Below, piece by piece: positions 17,690 to 62,775 of a stretch of DNA of 64,000 bases. The position numbers and the translations under genes were made by a program. Positions within the stretch are counted from its first letter, which is position 1. Each line of letters opens with the position of its first letter. Source of the DNA: Bacteroidota bacterium (GTDB lineage Bacteria > Bacteroidota > Bacteroidia > 2-12-FULL-35-15); the NCBI GenBank assembly GCA_947504725.1, contig CANNHN010000009.1, positions 1-64,000 on the forward strand. Reading direction: 5' to 3'. The notes under the pieces were generated by a model. That model was given only the letters and a program-made list of their open reading frames with translations, was not told the origin of the DNA and ran no database searches.

Positions 17690-19405
17690 CTACTCCAGCT
17701 TCATATCCTTCACATTCATCTGTAAAGAAACATTTCCATTGTATTCGTTTTCTTCAATGGCATAACAAGAACTGAATGTTCTCTTCCTCAAGATTGCATC
17801 AAAATGTTGTGCTTGTGAAAAGGCAATCGCTGAAAAAGTTTCTTTTGGTTTTTCTGCAGATTGAATATCCATTTTCAAATGGTTGTTTCCTACAATGCGC
17901 ACATAGCCTTTGTCGATAAGGTTTTTACTCATGAATACAGGCGACATATTTCCTGGACCAAATGGTTCGAACTGTTTTAGGATGCGGAAAAATTTGGGTG
18001 TGATGTCGGATAATTTTAATTCGGCATCAATGGCAATTTCTGGAATCAGCATGTGATCTTTGATGGTTGCAGAAACTACTTCTTCAAATCTTTGTTGAAA
18101 GGCTGCAAGGTTTTCTAATTTCATGGAGAGGCCTGCAGCATATTTATGTCCACCAAATTGCTCTAGCAAATCGGAACATGCTTCAATGGCATCGTATACA
18201 TCAAAATCTTTTACCGAACGAGCAGAACCGGTTGCCATTCCATTCGACTCCGTAAGAACGATTGTCGGGCGATAATATCTTTCTATTAGTCGAGAAGCCA
18301 CAATCCCAATAACACCTTTGTGCCAATCAGGATGAAACAAAACAGTTGATTTACGATTTATTAATTCTTCACTTTCGTCAATCATACTAAATGCATGTTG
18401 TGTGATGCTAACATCCAAGACTCTGCGTTCAGTGTTGGAAGTATTGATATTTATTCCAGAGGTTTTTGCATCAGCATGATTATCGGAAACCAAAAGTGCA
18501 ACCGCATTTCTTCCTGTTTCAATTCTCCCTGCAGCATTTATACGCGGACCAACGGTGAACACCAATTCGTTCATCGTTACTTCTTTTTTGATGTTCGCTA
18601 AATCCAAAATGGCTTTTATTCCTTTGCGTGGATTTTTATTGATTTGTTCCAATCCGAAATAACACAAAGCACGGTTTTCTCCAACAATGGGAACCAAATC
18701 CGAAGCGATGGAAATAGCAGTTAAATCAAGGTATTGCGTTAATTCAGAAAAAGGAATATTATTTTTTTGAGCATAGGCTTGAACCAATTTAAATCCAACT
18801 CCACAGCCACATAATTCGTCAAAAGGATAAGTACAGTCGTTACGTTTCGGATCTAAAATCGCAACTGCTTTCGGAAGTGTATCGCCTGGGCGATGGTGAT
18901 CACAAATAATAAAATCGATGTTGCGTTCATTCGCATAATCTACTTTATCAATTGCTTTTATTCCACAATCGAGTGCAATAATTAATGAGAAATTATTTTC
19001 TTTCGCGAAATCAATTCCCATAAAAGAGATTCCATAACCTTCAGCATATCTGTCTGGAATGTAGTATTCCACAAGCCCTTCCGACTCAGGTAAACTTTTC
19101 AAAAATGAATATACGAGAGAAACAGCTGTAGTTCCATCCACATCGTAATCGCCAAACACAAGAATTTTTTCTTTGTTGGAAATTGCTTTTTCCAAACGGG
19201 CAATGGCAATATCCATATCCTTCATTAAAAAAGGATCATGCAAATCGTCTAAAGAAGGTCGGAAAAATTTTTTCGCTTCGTCATACGTTTTAATATCACG
19301 TTGTACTAGCAAACTCGCCAACACCTTTTCAATCTTCAATTCTTCAGCCAGTTGATTTACAACTTTCTCATCAGCACTTGAATTTATACTCCACCGTTTT
19401 TCCAT
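17690..19405 (-). CDS. recJ: Single-stranded-DNA-specific exonuclease RecJ
   Basis: 571 residues. DHH phosphoesterase motifs are present: GDYDVDGT (85-92), ALDCGIK (144-150) and the signature CDHHRPGD (168-175). A DHHA1 domain with GGHKYAAG follows at about 410-430, and the OB-like C-terminal region ends in ...VSLQMNVKDMKLE. It degrades ssDNA 5' to 3' in mismatch repair and recombination. Length matches the family. The gene is divergent from the CotH-like gene, with a MITE-like repeat between them. Confidence 0.97.
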   Translation of the reverse strand: MEKRWSINSSADEKVVNQLAEELKIEKVLASLLVQRDIKTYDEAKKFFRPSLDDLHDPFLMKDMDIAIARLEKAISNKEKILVFGDYDVDGTTAVSLVYSFLKSLPESEGLVEYYIPDRYAEGYGISFMGIDFAKENNFSLIIALDCGIKAIDKVDYANERNIDFIICDHHRPGDTLPKAVAILDPKRNDCTYPFDELCGCGVGFKLVQAYAQKNNIPFSELTQYLDLTAISIASDLVPIVGENRALCYFGLEQINKNPRKGIKAILDLANIKKEVTMNELVFTVGPRINAAGRIETGRNAVALLVSDNHADAKTSGININTSNTERRVLDVSITQHAFSMIDESEELINRKSTVLFHPDWHKGVIGIVASRLIERYYRPTIVLTESNGMATGSARSVKDFDVYDAIEACSDLLEQFGGHKYAAGLSMKLENLAAFQQRFEEVVSATIKDHMLIPEIAIDAELKLSDITPKFFRILKQFEPFGPGNMSPVFMSKNLIDKGYVRIVGNNHLKMDIQSAEKPKETFSAIAFSQAQHFDAILRKRTFSSCYAIEENEYNGNVSLQMNVKDMKLE

Positions 19406-19429
19406 ATTATCTTCTTAGTTCACTATGTG

Positions 19430-19580
19430 AAAAATTTAAACACATAGACACATAGTTTTTTTACTTATTTTTTCATCCATAGATGAAGCAAGCTTCATTA
19501 CATAAAATCTCTCTGCGAAAAAATTTATTTTTCTCGACCCAACTCCTTTTTCTATGTTTCTATGTGTTAAAACCTTTTTT
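19430..19580. repeat. MITE-like element, CACATAG family, copy 1
   Basis: The left end reads AAATTTAAACACATAGACAC and the right end is its imperfect inverse (TTCTATGTTTCTATGTGTTA). Inside are a 7-bp palindrome ATGAAGC-AA-GCTTCAT and the AT block GAAAAAATTTATTTTTCT. It lies between the divergent recJ and CotH-like genes. Confidence 0.85.
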
Positions 19581-19668
19581 GCTTGTCTTCAAAAGTACTA
19601 CAATCACCATTATTATAACCTATTGGTAATTTGTAAACTTTAAGTTACTTTAGTGTAAAATTAAGGAA

Positions 19669-22037: not shown

Positions 22038-22267
22038 GTTTAAACACATAGACAAATAGTTTTAAAAGAAAAGGTATGGTGTGCTAGGGGATAGAAAAAT
22101 AAATTTTTTTCACAGAGAGATCTCTATGTCCATGAAGCTTGCTTCATCTATTCTGTTTTAAATACCCAAGAAGACGAACATGTTATTGAGTAGTAGTACT
22201 GAATAAAAGAAAAAACTAAAATATTGCGACACCTATAAAAACTATGTGTCTATGTGTTAAATTTTTT
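22038..22267. repeat. MITE-like element, CACATAG family, copy 2
   Basis: Left end GTTTAAACACATAGACAAAT and right end ACTATGTGTCTATGTGTTAA are inverse to each other. The interior contains GAAAAATAAATTTTTTT and ATGAAGC-TT-GCTTCAT, the reverse complement of blocks in copy 1, so this copy is in the opposite orientation. The longest copy at 230 bp, it occupies most of the gap between the small Cys-rich gene and the MORN-repeat gene. Confidence 0.85.
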
Positions 22268-27787: not shown

Positions 27788-30271
27788 ATGAACTACTCTA
27801 TCTCCGCAATTTCTTCAGTAATCAATGGAACTATTCATGGGAATATCAATTCCAGTGCTACTGTAAAAAACTTATTAATTGATAGTCGTAAACTTTCCAA
27901 CGCAGATACTTCTTTATTTTTCGCAATAAAAGGTGAACGCCACGATGGACATGCATACCTAATAGAACTTTTCGAAAAAGGTGTTCGTCAATTTGTTGTT
28001 TCTGCTTTACCAAATAACATTTCCGATTTTGATGCCGCTAGCTTTATTTTAGTTAACGATACACTTCTTGCATTACAACAGCTTTGTGCTTACCACCGTC
28101 AACAATTCAAAATTCCTGTTGTCGGAATAACTGGAAGTAACGGAAAAACCATAGTTAAAGAATGGCTGTATCAATTAATGCGTGAAGATAAAAATATTGT
28201 ACGCAGCCCAAAAAGCTTCAACTCACAAGTTGGTGTTCCTCTTTCTGTTTGGCAAATTTCAAAAGAACATGATTTAGCAATTTTCGAAGCTGGTATTTCT
28301 AAACCAAAAGAAATGCGTTTGCTCGAAAATATTATCCAACCTACAATTGGCGTTATTACTAACATCGGACAAGCACACGATGAAAATTTCGAAAACCAAA
28401 AACAAAAAGTATGTGAAAAACTAAAATTGTTTTTGAATTCAGAAGTGTTGATTTATTGTAAAGATTATTTATCCATTCAAGATGAAATAACTAACAACAA
28501 ATCTTTTTCCGAAGCTAAATTTTTCACCTGGTCGAAAAAATTACGTGCTGATTTGTTAATTGGTAGAATTACAAAAAACGAAACAGATACCGAAATTCAA
28601 GGTGTTTATAAAAATGATTTCATCCGTATCACTATTCCTTTTACTGATGAAGCAAGTATTGAAAACACCATTCATTGCTGGGCAACAATGCTGTATTTGG
28701 GATACGAAAACACTGTGATAACTGAACGAATGAGGTTCTTGAGTCCAGTTGCAATGCGACTTGAACTAAAAGAAGGAATCAACAATTGTTCTATTATAAA
28801 TGATAGTTATAATTCGGATTTAGGTTCTTTGGCTATTGCTTTGGATTTCTTAAACCAGCAAAAACAGCATCCTAAGAAAACACTAATCCTTTCAGATATT
28901 TTACAAAGCGGGCAAAATGATGCAACACTTTACAAGGAAGTTGCTGAGCTGATTCACAAAAAAGGAATTTCACGTTTGATTGGAATTGGAGAAGGAATTT
29001 CTTCACAATCCAATCAGTTCAATTGCGAAAAAAGTTTTTTCAAATCAACAACCGATTTTATACAACAGTTCAATAATTCCTTTTTCAGAGATGAAACAAT
29101 TCTCTTAAAAGGAGCTCGTATATTCAGTTTCGAGGCTATCAGCAAAATTATTCAACAGAAAGCTCACGAAACCGTTTTAGAAATAAATTTAAATGCAATC
29201 GTTCACAACTTAAATTACTACCGTTCCAAATTAAAAGCGGACACCAAAGTAATGGCAATGGTAAAAGCATTTTCTTACGGAAGTGGAAGTTTTGAAATAG
29301 CCAATATTCTTCAGTTTCATCGTGTGGATTATTTGGCAGTTGCTTATGCAGATGAAGGAATTGAATTACGCAAAGCAGGAATCACCATGCCAATTATGGT
29401 AATGAATCCCGAAGAACAAAGTTATGATGCAATGATTCAATACAACCTTGAACCTGAAATTTACAGTTTCAGAGTATTGAGTCTGTTTGAAGAAACCTTA
29501 AAACGCAGCGAGCGAAACAATGTACAACCCATTCCTATTCACATTAAGCTGGATACTGGAATGCACCGTTTGGGCTTTGATGCAGAAGAAGTAAATGAAT
29601 TGATTGTTAGAATCAGCAACAACAAACATCTTACAATAAAATCTGTTTTTTCTCATTTAGCAGCGAGTGATGAATCGGAGCACGATGATTTCACTTGGCA
29701 ACAAATCAAGAAATTGAATGCGATGAGTGAAAAAATAAAATCGCATTTTAATTATCAAATCTTAAAACATATTTTAAATTCAGCAGGAATTTCTCGTTTC
29801 CCCGATGCACAATTTGAAATGGTGAGATTAGGAATTGGTTTGTACGGAATTGGAGCAAATAAAACCGAACAAGCACAATTACAAAATGTGAGTACTTTAA
29901 AAACTAGCATCTCACAAATAAAAAATATTCCAGCAAAAGAAACCATCGGTTACAGCAGAAAAGGTGTTGCAACTCGCGACATACAAATTGCGACTGTACC
30001 AATTGGTTATGCAGATGGATTGAGCCGTAAACTCAGCAACGGGGCTGGAAAAATGATTGTGAAAGGAAAAGAAGCACCCATCATCGGAAATGTATGCATG
30101 GATATGTGTATGATTGACATCACCGATATTCAAGCAAACGAAAATGATGAAGTGATTATTTTTGGCGACTTAAATCCAATCACCGAAGTAGCGAAAGACA
30201 TTGGAACAATTCCTTATGAAGTATTGACGAATGTTTCGAGAAGAGTGAAGCGGGTTTATTATCAGGAGTAA
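27788..30271 (+). CDS. murF-alr: Bifunctional MurF ligase / alanine racemase
   Basis: 827 residues. Residues 1-450 are UDP-MurNAc-tripeptide:D-Ala-D-Ala ligase: P-loop GITGSNGKT (113-121) and the central VITNIGQAHDENF block. Residues about 455-827 are a PLP alanine racemase: the PLP lysine in AMVKAFSYGSG, the catalytic Tyr in TIGYSRKG, and PIGYADGLSRK plus IGNVCMDMCMIDIT. The fusion makes D-Ala and adds the dipeptide to the peptidoglycan precursor, and is characteristic of Bacteroidota. Note that IVKEW replaces the more usual T.KE after the P-loop. Its stop abuts the stop of meaB on the other strand, with no space for a terminator. Confidence 0.95.
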   Translation: MNYSISAISSVINGTIHGNINSSATVKNLLIDSRKLSNADTSLFFAIKGERHDGHAYLIELFEKGVRQFVVSALPNNISDFDAASFILVNDTLLALQQLCAYHRQQFKIPVVGITGSNGKTIVKEWLYQLMREDKNIVRSPKSFNSQVGVPLSVWQISKEHDLAIFEAGISKPKEMRLLENIIQPTIGVITNIGQAHDENFENQKQKVCEKLKLFLNSEVLIYCKDYLSIQDEITNNKSFSEAKFFTWSKKLRADLLIGRITKNETDTEIQGVYKNDFIRITIPFTDEASIENTIHCWATMLYLGYENTVITERMRFLSPVAMRLELKEGINNCSIINDSYNSDLGSLAIALDFLNQQKQHPKKTLILSDILQSGQNDATLYKEVAELIHKKGISRLIGIGEGISSQSNQFNCEKSFFKSTTDFIQQFNNSFFRDETILLKGARIFSFEAISKIIQQKAHETVLEINLNAIVHNLNYYRSKLKADTKVMAMVKAFSYGSGSFEIANILQFHRVDYLAVAYADEGIELRKAGITMPIMVMNPEEQSYDAMIQYNLEPEIYSFRVLSLFEETLKRSERNNVQPIPIHIKLDTGMHRLGFDAEEVNELIVRISNNKHLTIKSVFSHLAASDESEHDDFTWQQIKKLNAMSEKIKSHFNYQILKHILNSAGISRFPDAQFEMVRLGIGLYGIGANKTEQAQLQNVSTLKTSISQIKNIPAKETIGYSRKGVATRDIQIATVPIGYADGLSRKLSNGAGKMIVKGKEAPIIGNVCMDMCMIDITDIQANENDEVIIFGDLNPITEVAKDIGTIPYEVLTNVSRRVKRVYYQE

Positions 30272-31174
30272 CTATTTCAAACTCCGAACAAACGCATACA
30301 AATTAAAATCCTCTTTCTTCAACTCCACATCAATCTGTTTTTGCAAATCCATTTTAGAAACACCCTTCATCTTTTTATTCTGAATCAAACGATACGCTTT
30401 TTCAGCAAGTAAATAAGAACGTTTTGTATTTACGCCAACTTTGTTGTGTTTATCAATCGCTTCAATCAATTCATCTACTCCTTCTCCTTTTGTAGCAATT
30501 CCTTTTATTACAGGAATATTCCATTCGTTCGCCATTTTTGAATGTACTAACTGAATAATATTTTTGATAAATGTATTCGCTCCGTCTCTGTCCGATTTGT
30601 TCACCACAAATACATCCGCAATTTCCATGATTCCCGATTTAATCGCCTGCACATCGTCACCTGATTCTGGAACCAAAACTAAAACAGTTGTATCTGCCAA
30701 ACCAACTACTTCCACTTCACTTTGTCCGACACCCACCGTTTCTACAAAAATATAATCAAAGGAAAAAGCACGCATCACATCCACAATCTCAATTGTTTTT
30801 GCAGACAATCCACCCAATGAACCACGAGTTGCTATCGAACGAATAAACACTTTATCATTATTGAAATGCTCTGCCATTCGTAATCTATCACCCAACAAAG
30901 AGCCATAATTAAATGGAGATGTTGGATCAATCGCAAGTATCCCTACCGACTTATTTTGAGTAGTGAGTTTTTTAATTACAGAATTTATTAATGTGCTTTT
31001 TCCAGCACCTGGAGGACCAGTAACACCAACAACAGGAGTATTCGAATTGAATTTTAAAGATGTGAGAATTTCCTCATAACCTTCCAGCTCATTTTCAACA
31101 ATGGTAATACAACGCGCCAATGCTTTTTCATCGCCTTGCTGTAATAGTTTTATGAGTGTTTGGGTAGTTGACAT
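30272..31174 (-). CDS. meaB: Methylmalonyl-CoA mutase-associated GTPase MeaB
   Basis: 300 residues, a G3E/SIMIBI-type P-loop GTPase. Motifs: GVTGPPGAGKSTLIN (G1), AIDPTSPFNYGSLLGDR, the ETVGVGQSEVEV switch and VVNKSD (G4). MeaB protects and reloads adenosylcobalamin-dependent methylmalonyl-CoA mutase. The mutase genes are not in this window. It is convergent with murF-alr at zero spacing and divergent from a glycosyltransferase, with a MITE-like repeat in between. Confidence 0.95.
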   Translation of the reverse strand: MSTTQTLIKLLQQGDEKALARCITIVENELEGYEEILTSLKFNSNTPVVGVTGPPGAGKSTLINSVIKKLTTQNKSVGILAIDPTSPFNYGSLLGDRLRMAEHFNNDKVFIRSIATRGSLGGLSAKTIEIVDVMRAFSFDYIFVETVGVGQSEVEVVGLADTTVLVLVPESGDDVQAIKSGIMEIADVFVVNKSDRDGANTFIKNIIQLVHSKMANEWNIPVIKGIATKGEGVDELIEAIDKHNKVGVNTKRSYLLAEKAYRLIQNKKMKGVSKMDLQKQIDVELKKEDFNLYAFVRSLK

Positions 31175-31198
31175 TTTAACAAAGATAGTACTAAATGT

Positions 31199-31342
31199 GA
31201 AAATTTAAACACATAGACACATAGTTTTTAAAGGCGCTGTGCTTTACATAGCCATTATAAAGTACGCGCATAGGTCTATTTGTAAAAATTTATTTTTCTA
31301 TGACATTCTTCCTTTCTATGTGCCTATGTGTTTAAATTTTTG
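31199..31342. repeat. MITE-like element, CACATAG family, copy 3
   Basis: Left end AAATTTAAACACATAGACAC; right end CTATGTGCCTATGTGTTTAA, nearly perfect inverse. The right half holds AAAAATTTATTTTTCT as in copy 1, so copies 1 and 3 share orientation. Its last bases (TTTTTG, 31337-31342) form the -33 box of the promoter for the glycosyltransferase gene. Confidence 0.85.
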
Positions 31343-31369
31343 TGTGTAAAGCTATTAGTGTTACTTTTG
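31339..31369 (+). promoter_or_regulatory. Promoter of the glycosyltransferase gene, -33 box in repeat
   Basis: TTTG (31339-31342), 19 bp, then TACTTTTG (31362-31369). Both boxes and the spacing match the Bacteroidota consensus TTTG-N19-21-TAnnTTTG. The predicted start is near 31376, 13 nt before the ATG. Confidence 0.6.
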
Positions 31370-31388
31370 CATAACTAATAACACCCAA

Positions 31389-32141
31389 ATGCCACAACTA
31401 TCCGTTGTCATTATTACGTTTAATGAAGAAAAAAACATTAGTCGCTGCCTCGAATCTATTCAGGGAATTGCGGATGATGTGGTGATATTGGATTCCTTTT
31501 CTACCGATGCTACGGAAAGTATTTCTAAAAAATACAATGTGAATTTCATTTCCCGAAAATGGGAAGGCTATTCAGCATCAAAGAACTTCGCGAACGCACA
31601 AGCAAAATACGATTGGGTTTTATCTTTAGATGCCGATGAAGCATTATCTGAAGAATTAATAAAATCAATCTTAAAAGCAAAAGAAGGTAAAGAATTAAAG
31701 ACGTACAAATTTCACCGACTAACAAATTATTGCGGTTCATGGATAAAACATTGCGGCTGGTATCCTGATACAAAAATCAGAATCTTCGATAGAAGAATTA
31801 CCAAATGGGAAGGAATAATTCACGAGAAGTTAGTAATAGACTCCAAACAAGAGGCCATTCTACTAAATGGTGATTGTCTGCATTACAGTTACTACACTAT
31901 AGAGCAACATCATTTACAAGTAGAAAAGTTTTCTACGCTTGCTGCACAAAATTTATTTGAAAAAGGGAAACAAGCTTCTGTATTGCAATTGTGGTTAAGC
32001 CCAATTGTAAAATTTATCAGCGACTACTTTTTTAAACTAGGAATTTTAGACGGAGCTGCAGGATTTACTATTTGCAAGATTTCTGCTAAACATTCTTATT
32101 TGAAATATAAGAAGTTGATGGAATTGAGCTCAAAAAATTAA
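31389..32141 (+). CDS. Family 2 glycosyltransferase (KdtX/WaaE-like)
   Basis: 250 residues, GT-A fold. The N-terminus SVVIITFNEEKNISRCLESI is the nucleotide-sugar binding start. LSLDADEALSEEL carries the DxD-like metal motif. HCGWYPDTKIRIFDRR and the HEKLV block resemble the LPS-core glycosyltransferases of the KdtX/WaaE group, cytoplasmic enzymes adding a sugar to lipid A-core. It overlaps by 4 nt, convergently, the gene of an O-antigen ligase-like protein, which supports a cell-surface glycan role. The sugar is unknown. Confidence 0.88.
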   Translation: MPQLSVVIITFNEEKNISRCLESIQGIADDVVILDSFSTDATESISKKYNVNFISRKWEGYSASKNFANAQAKYDWVLSLDADEALSEELIKSILKAKEGKELKTYKFHRLTNYCGSWIKHCGWYPDTKIRIFDRRITKWEGIIHEKLVIDSKQEAILLNGDCLHYSYYTIEQHHLQVEKFSTLAAQNLFEKGKQASVLQLWLSPIVKFISDYFFKLGILDGAAGFTICKISAKHSYLKYKKLMELSSKN

Positions 32142-33706
32142 TCCTTCCTGTTAAACACAAACAAGAAAAAAGAATTAAAGAAAGCATAGAAAGTAACTCC
32201 TGCCTGAGATTCGAGTGTGTCTTCTGTTAAAAAGGAAATGATGGCGATTAATAAAAAACTGATGTATAGATAATCAAACGTTTTTCCCATCAACACCATC
32301 GGGTAAATAAGTGTAATTAAAAACCAAATCAATCCAACTACTCCAAATGCTACTGTAATAGATAAATATTGATTATGTGAACGCAATCTTGATTCTTTTG
32401 CAAGTGGCGAATTCATTTTATCATATTGTTGTTCAAATGCTGTTTTTATATCTCCAGCTCCCACTCCGAAAACAACATTGTCTTTAATAATTCCTATAGC
32501 AGTTTTCCAAAACTCAAACCGTTGCGTTAATGAATGTCCGCTTGGGTCTCCAGTAATTTTATACATATCCAGTTCCCAGGCTATTTCATGCAATCTCCTT
32601 TTTAAACTCGAAATATTTTGATAATTGACATTTACAACTCCTCTTTCGATTGCTTTTACTTCATCATCAGAAAGCGACTCAACAGCATCTGCATCTTTTC
32701 TTAATCCTTTAGAGGCTAAAAATCGAACTAGAGTATAATTAAGCGGATTGCCTTTTAAATCATTTTCTAAAAATTTTAGATTACTTCTTTGATTCCAAGA
32801 TTCTTCCAATTCTTGATTACAAAAGTAAACCCAAATATAATGTCCATTTTCAGTTAATTGTCCTGTCAAAACATGTTGGTAGGCATTTCCTCTCGAAGTG
32901 GTCAATTCCAATTTTGAGAAATCCAATTTTTCAGGTTCTGGAATTCCTTTGTTAATTTGATTAGCGAAATAGAAAATTGTTATTCCAATTAATGTTACAA
33001 TTGCAAAACCAGAATACTTAACCCTTCTTTTAGGTGAAGCTATAATTGAAAAAAGTGTAATTATAAGTATTGCAAAACAAAATGCAACAAGACCAGTGAT
33101 AGATTCTGTAATAACTAAAAAGGAGATTAACCATAATGGTATTACAACCCAGATAATTTTATAAATTGGTTTTAATTGCTTGTAAAAAAAGTATCCCGAA
33201 ATAAACATGGCAATACAAATCAATAAGGCAAAACGAATATGTGAAATAAAAACCGAAACACTTCTTATATCAACTAGTTCCCGATGAATAAAGCCCGTTA
33301 GAATAAGAGTACTAATAATTGTTCCCAAAATAATTGCAGCAACAAAAAATTGCAAGATTGCATCAATTGCTTTTTTAGAAAGCGGTTTCGAAGTAGACAA
33401 TATTATTGGCAGAATAAAAAGTGGCATTTTTATTCTGATATCTTTCATTGCATATTCAAAATCGGTTGTATAAATTAAACCAAGAAGATGAAGCAAAAAA
33501 AGTGAACATATAATTAAAGCTGGTTTATTTTTAAAAAAGAAAAAGAATTTGTTTTTTAGGTTTCCTTCGAGAAGAAAATTGCAAGCTAAAATAATTTGAG
33601 AGAGGCTCATCAAAAATTTAGATAGCGGCATTCCTATCACCAATAAAATTAAGGCGAAAATATAAACGTAAGTATGGTACTTTTCAGGGAGTAGCGATTT
33701 CCTCAT
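32138..33706 (-). CDS. O-antigen ligase-like (Wzy_C family) membrane protein
   Basis: 522 residues with about eleven membrane helices, in two blocks (about 12-260 and 440-515). Between them is a large, charged periplasmic loop (about 265-430) with many Trp/Arg residues. The loop ends in FGVGAGDIKTAFEQQYDKMN and LRSHNQYLSITVAFGV, where the H of SHNQYL is the conserved His of the WaaL/Wzy_C family. Members transfer or polymerise undecaprenyl-linked glycans on the periplasmic side. It may act on LPS O-antigen or on a protein glycan. It is convergent with the glycosyltransferase gene. Confidence 0.85.
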   Translation of the reverse strand: MRKSLLPEKYHTYVYIFALILLVIGMPLSKFLMSLSQIILACNFLLEGNLKNKFFFFFKNKPALIICSLFLLHLLGLIYTTDFEYAMKDIRIKMPLFILPIILSTSKPLSKKAIDAILQFFVAAIILGTIISTLILTGFIHRELVDIRSVSVFISHIRFALLICIAMFISGYFFYKQLKPIYKIIWVVIPLWLISFLVITESITGLVAFCFAILIITLFSIIASPKRRVKYSGFAIVTLIGITIFYFANQINKGIPEPEKLDFSKLELTTSRGNAYQHVLTGQLTENGHYIWVYFCNQELEESWNQRSNLKFLENDLKGNPLNYTLVRFLASKGLRKDADAVESLSDDEVKAIERGVVNVNYQNISSLKRRLHEIAWELDMYKITGDPSGHSLTQRFEFWKTAIGIIKDNVVFGVGAGDIKTAFEQQYDKMNSPLAKESRLRSHNQYLSITVAFGVVGLIWFLITLIYPMVLMGKTFDYLYISFLLIAIISFLTEDTLESQAGVTFYAFFNSFFLFVFNRKD

Positions 33707-62616: not shown

Positions 62617-62775
62617 AAAATTTAAACACATAGACACATAGTTTGTTATAGGTGTTAAAGGGTTACATAAAAACACATAGGCAAAAAATCGTTAACGATT
62701 TTTGCCTATGCGTGCCTTTTAAGCGTGAAGTACGTAAACTTCTTTTTTTCTATGTCTCTATGTGTTTAAAAAAAT
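62617..62775. repeat. MITE-like element, CACATAG family, copy 4
   Basis: Left end AAAATTTAAACACATAGACA; right end TCTATGTCTCTATGTGTTTA. The interior holds a 35-bp near-perfect palindrome (62676-62710) centred on GTTAAC, with arms CATAGGCAAAAAATCG and CGATTTTTGCCTATG. It lies between the convergent nuclease and hydrolase genes, ending next to the hydrolase stop. Confidence 0.85.

Follow-up and report, generated by a model that had tools for sequence, protein, structure and literature searches.

The locus lies in a stretch of 64,000 nucleotides (the window) on contig C9 of a freshwater Bacteroidota genome of 3.4 Mb (43 contigs, 99.6% complete), here called G000. Two genes diverge from a spacer at 31175-31388 that holds one copy, copy 3, of a MITE-like repeat. 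The gene on the plus strand encodes a family 2 glycosyltransferase (PF00535, 74.5 bits against a cut-off of 23.3), and its neighbour on the minus strand encodes the GTPase MeaB (PF03308, 264.9 bits; TIGR00750 over its cut-off). Given that an O-antigen ligase gene (PF04932) adjoins the glycosyltransferase gene on the opposite strand, the label "LPS-type" attached to the latter by an earlier, sequence-only reading of this DNA is plausible. The features of the locus are as follows.

30272 to 31174, minus strand: meaB GTPase gene, 300 aa, the divergent neighbour
31180 to 31187, minus strand: TATCTTTG, -7 box for the divergent gene meaB, lying 5 nt ahead of its ATG (TAnnTTTG in 20/20 genomes)
31200 to 31341, no strand: MITE-like inverted-repeat element, copy 3, ~142 bp, delimited by arms and extended pairing
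31204 to 31224, plus strand: left arm of copy 3, TTTAAACACATAGACACATAG, pairing with the right arm
31316 to 31336, minus strand: right arm of copy 3, reverse complement TTTAAACACATAGGCACATAG, pairing with the left arm
31337 to 31342, plus strand: TTTTTG, candidate -33 box of the glycosyltransferase promoter, from the own-genome spacing preference
31340 to 31357, plus strand: 18-nt stretch, in G000 only among element-bearing relatives, placement ambiguous by a few nt
31362 to 31369, plus strand: TACTTTTG, ancestral -7 box of the glycosyltransferase promoter (TAnnTTTG in 18/20 genomes)
31389 to 32141, plus strand: family 2 glycosyltransferase gene, 250 aa

Promoters of the Sigma-ABfr type in Bacteroidota follow the pattern TTTG / TAnnTTTG, as described in sections of PMC7366714, PMC6847099 and PMC9723704. 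The -7 box TACTTTTG fits TAnnTTTG (TAHHTTTG), and a TTTG precedes it at a favoured spacing. The geometry given by the sequence-only reading is accurate: TTTTTG at 31337-31342 is followed by a 19-bp gap (31343-31361), by TACTTTTG at 31362-31369 and by the ATG at 31389, and the 19 nt between box and ATG fall within the 13-20 nt that it had named. For F. johnsoniae, part of PMC6847099 reports a transcript start 4-5 nt after the -7 box and a -33 motif that is hardly evident. By that rule the start is predicted at 31374-31375, near the 31376 proposed earlier.

Copy 3 contains no ORF of at least 80 aa, and its hairpin, folded as DNA, reaches -28.5 kcal/mol (z -7.47 against shuffles). When searched with an exact 17-nt pattern, the TTTAAACACATAGACACATAG arms were found at 24 loci in G000 (42 matches), with 30 matches in G041, 10 in G003, 9 each in G007 and G016, 10 in the genome of L059 and 1 in G006; the same pattern gave 0 matches in G001, G018, G010 and the genome of L058. 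Short, with terminal inverted repeats, no coding capacity and many copies, the element has these traits of a MITE. By eye, no exact direct repeat was seen flanking the copies, and the compact G041 allele is too different to place the joint. Judged by the exact arm pattern only, no longer copy with the same ends was seen in G000, where nearly all arms pair within ~100-500 bp. We rejected identity with a RAYT-mobilised REPIN because the Y1 transposase (PF01797) has 0 matches in G000 despite the 24 element loci; it is found in G003, G007 and G041. A recognised structured RNA was rejected as well: the sole Rfam match in 30200-32200, mir-3149, scored 25.2 bits (E 0.07) where the gathering score is 100, and we read it as chance on an AT-rich hairpin.

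The other copies in the window differ in setting. At 19425-19597, copy 1 lies between a minus-strand TACTTTTG (~19590-19597) and the ORF at 17690-19405, and may therefore sit in the 5' leader of that gene; by eye, no such element occurs at this site in G003, G007 or G041. Copy 2 (22039-22262) is also found in G041 and is absent at the same site in G003 and G007, the former holding other repeat-like DNA there. Within copy 4, at 62673-62713, there is another, internal inverted repeat whose arms are 15 nt long. At the copy 3 site, the arms (31204-31224, 31316-31336) show paired changes between species when compared with G003, G007 and L059; one position is C-G in G000, A-T in G003 and G-C in L059, and is unpaired in G007. 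Across these alignments it looks as if the arms were often kept complementary between species.

We compared the divergent meaB/glycosyltransferase pair in 20 genomes: G000, 15 of the 19 loci with meaB upstream, and G004, G011, G014 and G005. Left out were L080, L087, L107 and L135 (meaB 59-65% identical, spacers too diverged) and the more distant or differently arranged G013, G030, G036 and G029; G013 keeps GATAATTTTAGTACTTTTG upstream of the gene, without meaB directly beside it. The meaB -7 box is present in all 20 genomes and the glycosyltransferase -7 box in 18, G000 included and most of them without the element; the two lacking it are L059 and G009. Among 13 compact, element-free spacers, 11 have the two -7 boxes facing each other across 14-15 bp in the form CAAATATA-N14/15-TACTTTTG, with a near-invariant AT-rich core, GATAATTTTA, between them. 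The two deviants are G001, with 10 bp, and G009, with a degenerate box. Since the 11 rows are mutually related, they do not stand for 11 independent events; the glycosyltransferases of these compact-promoter relatives are ~55-90% identical to that of G000. A TTTG at 19 bp occurs in 1 of the 18 box-bearing genomes, namely G000, and G001 has one at 22 bp. In another lineage, G016 (L057), a different repeat-like sequence has entered the spacer before position 1501 and left both -7 boxes intact.

The closest of these comparisons is G041 (CAMCUO010000002.1), with 96% amino-acid identity to G000 in MeaB and 90% in the glycosyltransferase. Its spacer is compact (55 bp), carries the -7 box and lacks a TTTG at 19 bp. 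In both gene trees G041 groups with G000 and G003 (meaB 99/97, GT 86/84), and other members of the wider group around these three carry the element or a remnant. Being compact yet nested among element carriers, G041 has undergone either a precise loss of the element or the acquisition of a compact allele. The sequence-only reading had left it undecided whether the element made or altered the promoter. With a -7 box that is old, and a TTTG at 19 bp confined to G000 among the genomes compared, the sequences support a change to an existing promoter and do not support its creation by the element: the box predates the element and is common to element-free relatives, including the very close G041, and copy 3 lies within what those relatives have as a putative promoter of two closely facing boxes. 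A conserved TTTG in element-free relatives, which that reading had named as evidence against itself, was not found at 19 bp.

A homologous element occupies the same place in G003, G007 and L059, with its right end abutting the -7 box, and 18 alignment columns of G000 are missing from all three. G006 and L058 keep only a right-arm remnant, and their spacers end in the same short junction. G003 and G007 lack a TTTG at 19 bp because their element abuts the -7 box; the short junction in the other element-bearing relatives means that insertion alone places no -33 box, and that the extra G000 stretch does. The 12-nt core of this stretch has no second copy in the 1.14 Mb scanned. These results bear on the claims that TTTTTG is the end of copy 3 and that the element donates the -33 box. 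Among 43 aligned arms (22 G000 copies), the sequence outside the arm is an A/T-run and then no fixed base, so the outermost run of copy 3 is element-like, but the next position, read outward, is G in only 7 of the 43. Donation of the box by the element is supported only in part: the T-run can be credited to the element, but the G is unconserved, the last TTG aligns within the lineage-specific stretch, and the distance is 19 bp only by virtue of 16-18 nt that the other element-bearing relatives lack. We also discarded the idea that the element supplies -33 boxes as a rule. From G000 and G041, 87 arm-like ends were taken, a count that keeps several with 4-5 mismatches that are probably spurious; a TAnnTTTG pointing outward lies no more than 70 bp away from 10 of them, and of these 10 the copy 3 end has a TTTG at 17-23 bp and the remaining 9 have none.

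To place the 19-bp spacing in its genomic context, we scanned the window and 800 kb of G000 (864 kb), where a crude rule called 666 ORFs of at least 100 aa, 497 of them with at least 30 nt free upstream. TAnnTTTG boxes upstream of ORFs numbered 157 in the sense direction, against 45 antisense and a shuffle mean of 29.6 (864 kb). A TTTG stands at exactly 19 bp from 9 of the 157 boxes, the copy 3 case among them, and at 20 bp from 6; outside 16-23 bp the background over the 157 boxes is 1.31 per position (~0.8%). The sum at 19-20 bp is therefore 15/157, where ~2.6 would be expected from other positions, and this ~six-fold over-representation takes the match beyond wishful reading. A smaller set of 46 boxes, from the window and three relatives' contigs, has the same peak (1 at 19 bp, 4 at 20 bp). 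Since only 21 of the 157 boxes have a TTTG at 17-23 bp, it is optional in G000. A -33 TTTG is genuine in this genome, though confined to a minority of boxes, and 19 bp is its commonest spacing. Setting the 8 other cases at 19 bp against the 1.31 expected, a working -33 box at that distance is favoured over chance by roughly six to one, a figure in which the several element ends that could have been picked are uncounted.

An upstream profile built from 142 other own-genome promoters scored the 12 nt beside the -7 box at 2.70 for the compact allele, 1.98 for G003, G007 and G006, and -0.12 for G000; the AT-rich block beside the box is gone from the G000 allele. Over the whole 40 nt, G000 falls at the 24th percentile of own-genome promoters, G041 at the 41st, and G003 and G007 at the 87th. 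In F. johnsoniae, AT-rich motifs near -18 and -28 are described in part of PMC6847099 as more pronounced than any -33 motif. Taken with these motifs, the profile scores imply that the G000 allele lost the more general feature and holds an optional one. A compensating -33 box would fit this result; a better promoter in G000, judged by the general profile, would not.

The explanation we prefer, with confidence evenly divided for and against it, is a fusion promoter at the element end, with a candidate -33 box taking the place of AT-rich sequence upstream. A non-coding inverted-repeat element occupies the short meaB/glycosyltransferase spacer, a compact two-way promoter in related genomes, and has moved the two -7 boxes 174 bp apart with both intact. 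In G000, the terminal T-run of the element and the G that follows make up TTTTTG, and 16-18 nt of lineage-specific sequence keep it at a distance of exactly 19 bp to the ancestral -7 box. With the AT-rich sequence lost, the main sigma factor may now contact this TTTG at -33 instead, and the glycosyltransferase gene would then be read from a fusion promoter clear of that of meaB. Comparison of the alleles establishes that the putative promoter was split, that its -7 box is old and that, of the genomes compared, G000 alone has a TTTG at 19 bp. The fusion promoter is favoured by the box in 18/20 genomes, the TTTG at 19 bp in 1/18, the 19-20 bp peak, the compact element-free relatives and the lost AT-rich block. 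Against it, the -33 TTTG is optional, relatives manage without one, the profile percentile of G000 is below those of G003 and G007, and a single TTTG at one spacing may be chance, at ~0.8% per position with several element ends to pick from.

The last point leads to an alternative that we take seriously while leaning somewhat against it, namely that the TTTG at 19 bp is coincidental, transcription needs no more than the ancestral -7 box with the AT-rich DNA around it, and the element is a tolerated passenger. Consistent with this, 17 of the 18 box-bearing genomes have no TTTG at 19 bp (that of G001 being at 22 bp), 136 of the 157 own-genome boxes have none at 17-23 bp, and the same is true of all 9 other element ends that have a box pointing outward no more than 70 bp away. 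However, 19 bp is the commonest spacing in G000, with 8 other cases against 1.31 expected, and the AT-rich block is missing from the G000 allele. A different question is which junction came first. The G000 junction may be the older one, with 16 nt lost between two GTG triplets in the other element-bearing lineages and the original spacing kept in G000; by eye, the extra stretch has GTG at both sides and its end resembles the TTTTAG of the compact spacer. We find this doubtful, if still a reasonable possibility: the short junction in the G007/L059 and G006/L058 pairs would need separate losses or exchange. G003 adds no independent witness, because it has a 74-nt identical block in common with G007.

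That block, which runs from the right part of the element to the ATG and ends at G000 position 31392, contrasts with flanking genes that are 81% (meaB) and 75% (glycosyltransferase) identical between G003 and G007, and it probably reflects exchange of a promoter block. More generally, the intergenic block may move between related species by recombination, so that the promoter would be exchanged as a cassette, whether or not this includes the element. The identity of the 74 nt and the compact spacer of G041, which nonetheless groups with element-bearing G000 and G003, bring this explanation to just short of an even chance. The genomes are few, exact excision in G041 is possible, and some of the identity, though scarcely that within the element, could come from selection acting on the block. 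Cassette swapping and the fusion promoter can both be true. A broader version, in which the spacer is a recurrent switching site, would have different repeats breaking the ancestral two-way promoter in several lineages and uncoupling the genes, a -33 box re-formed from the element end in G000, and promoter blocks crossing species by recombination; we consider it unlikely.

The locus provides a before-and-after comparison made by nature: close relatives have the two genes with a compact two-way promoter, and G000 has them with an element-split one. It allows a test of how far the optional Bacteroidota -33 box counts where the -7 box has lost its neighbouring AT-rich sequence, and of whether divergent genes are uncoupled by small repeats.

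Fusion (hybrid) promoters at the ends of insertion sequences are reviewed in PMC9330008, part of which notes that the Bacteroides consensus makes element-driven promoter formation host-dependent. As in those fusion promoters, here the element end would give the upstream box and resident DNA the start-proximal box; unlike in them, the -7 box already belonged to a conserved promoter, the element is non-coding and the promoter is putative. The BrickBuilt MITE of Porphyromonas gingivalis, for segments of which promoter activity is reported in part of PMC4596501, is likewise a non-coding, inverted-repeat, intergenic, multi-copy element of a Bacteroidota species. As described there, it differs in its 23-nt tandem repeats, its promoters in leader and tail and its other terminal repeats, whereas here there is no more than a candidate -33 box, and that at an end of copy 3 alone. 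Like Sigma-ABfr type promoters, that of the glycosyltransferase gene has both boxes, at a spacing enriched in G000; unlike them, its -33 box is of a kind that is optional in G000 and is absent at 19 bp from the same promoter in relatives. On these comparisons, we regard the G000 locus as a further candidate of a known kind, a fusion promoter at an element end, and not as a new system.
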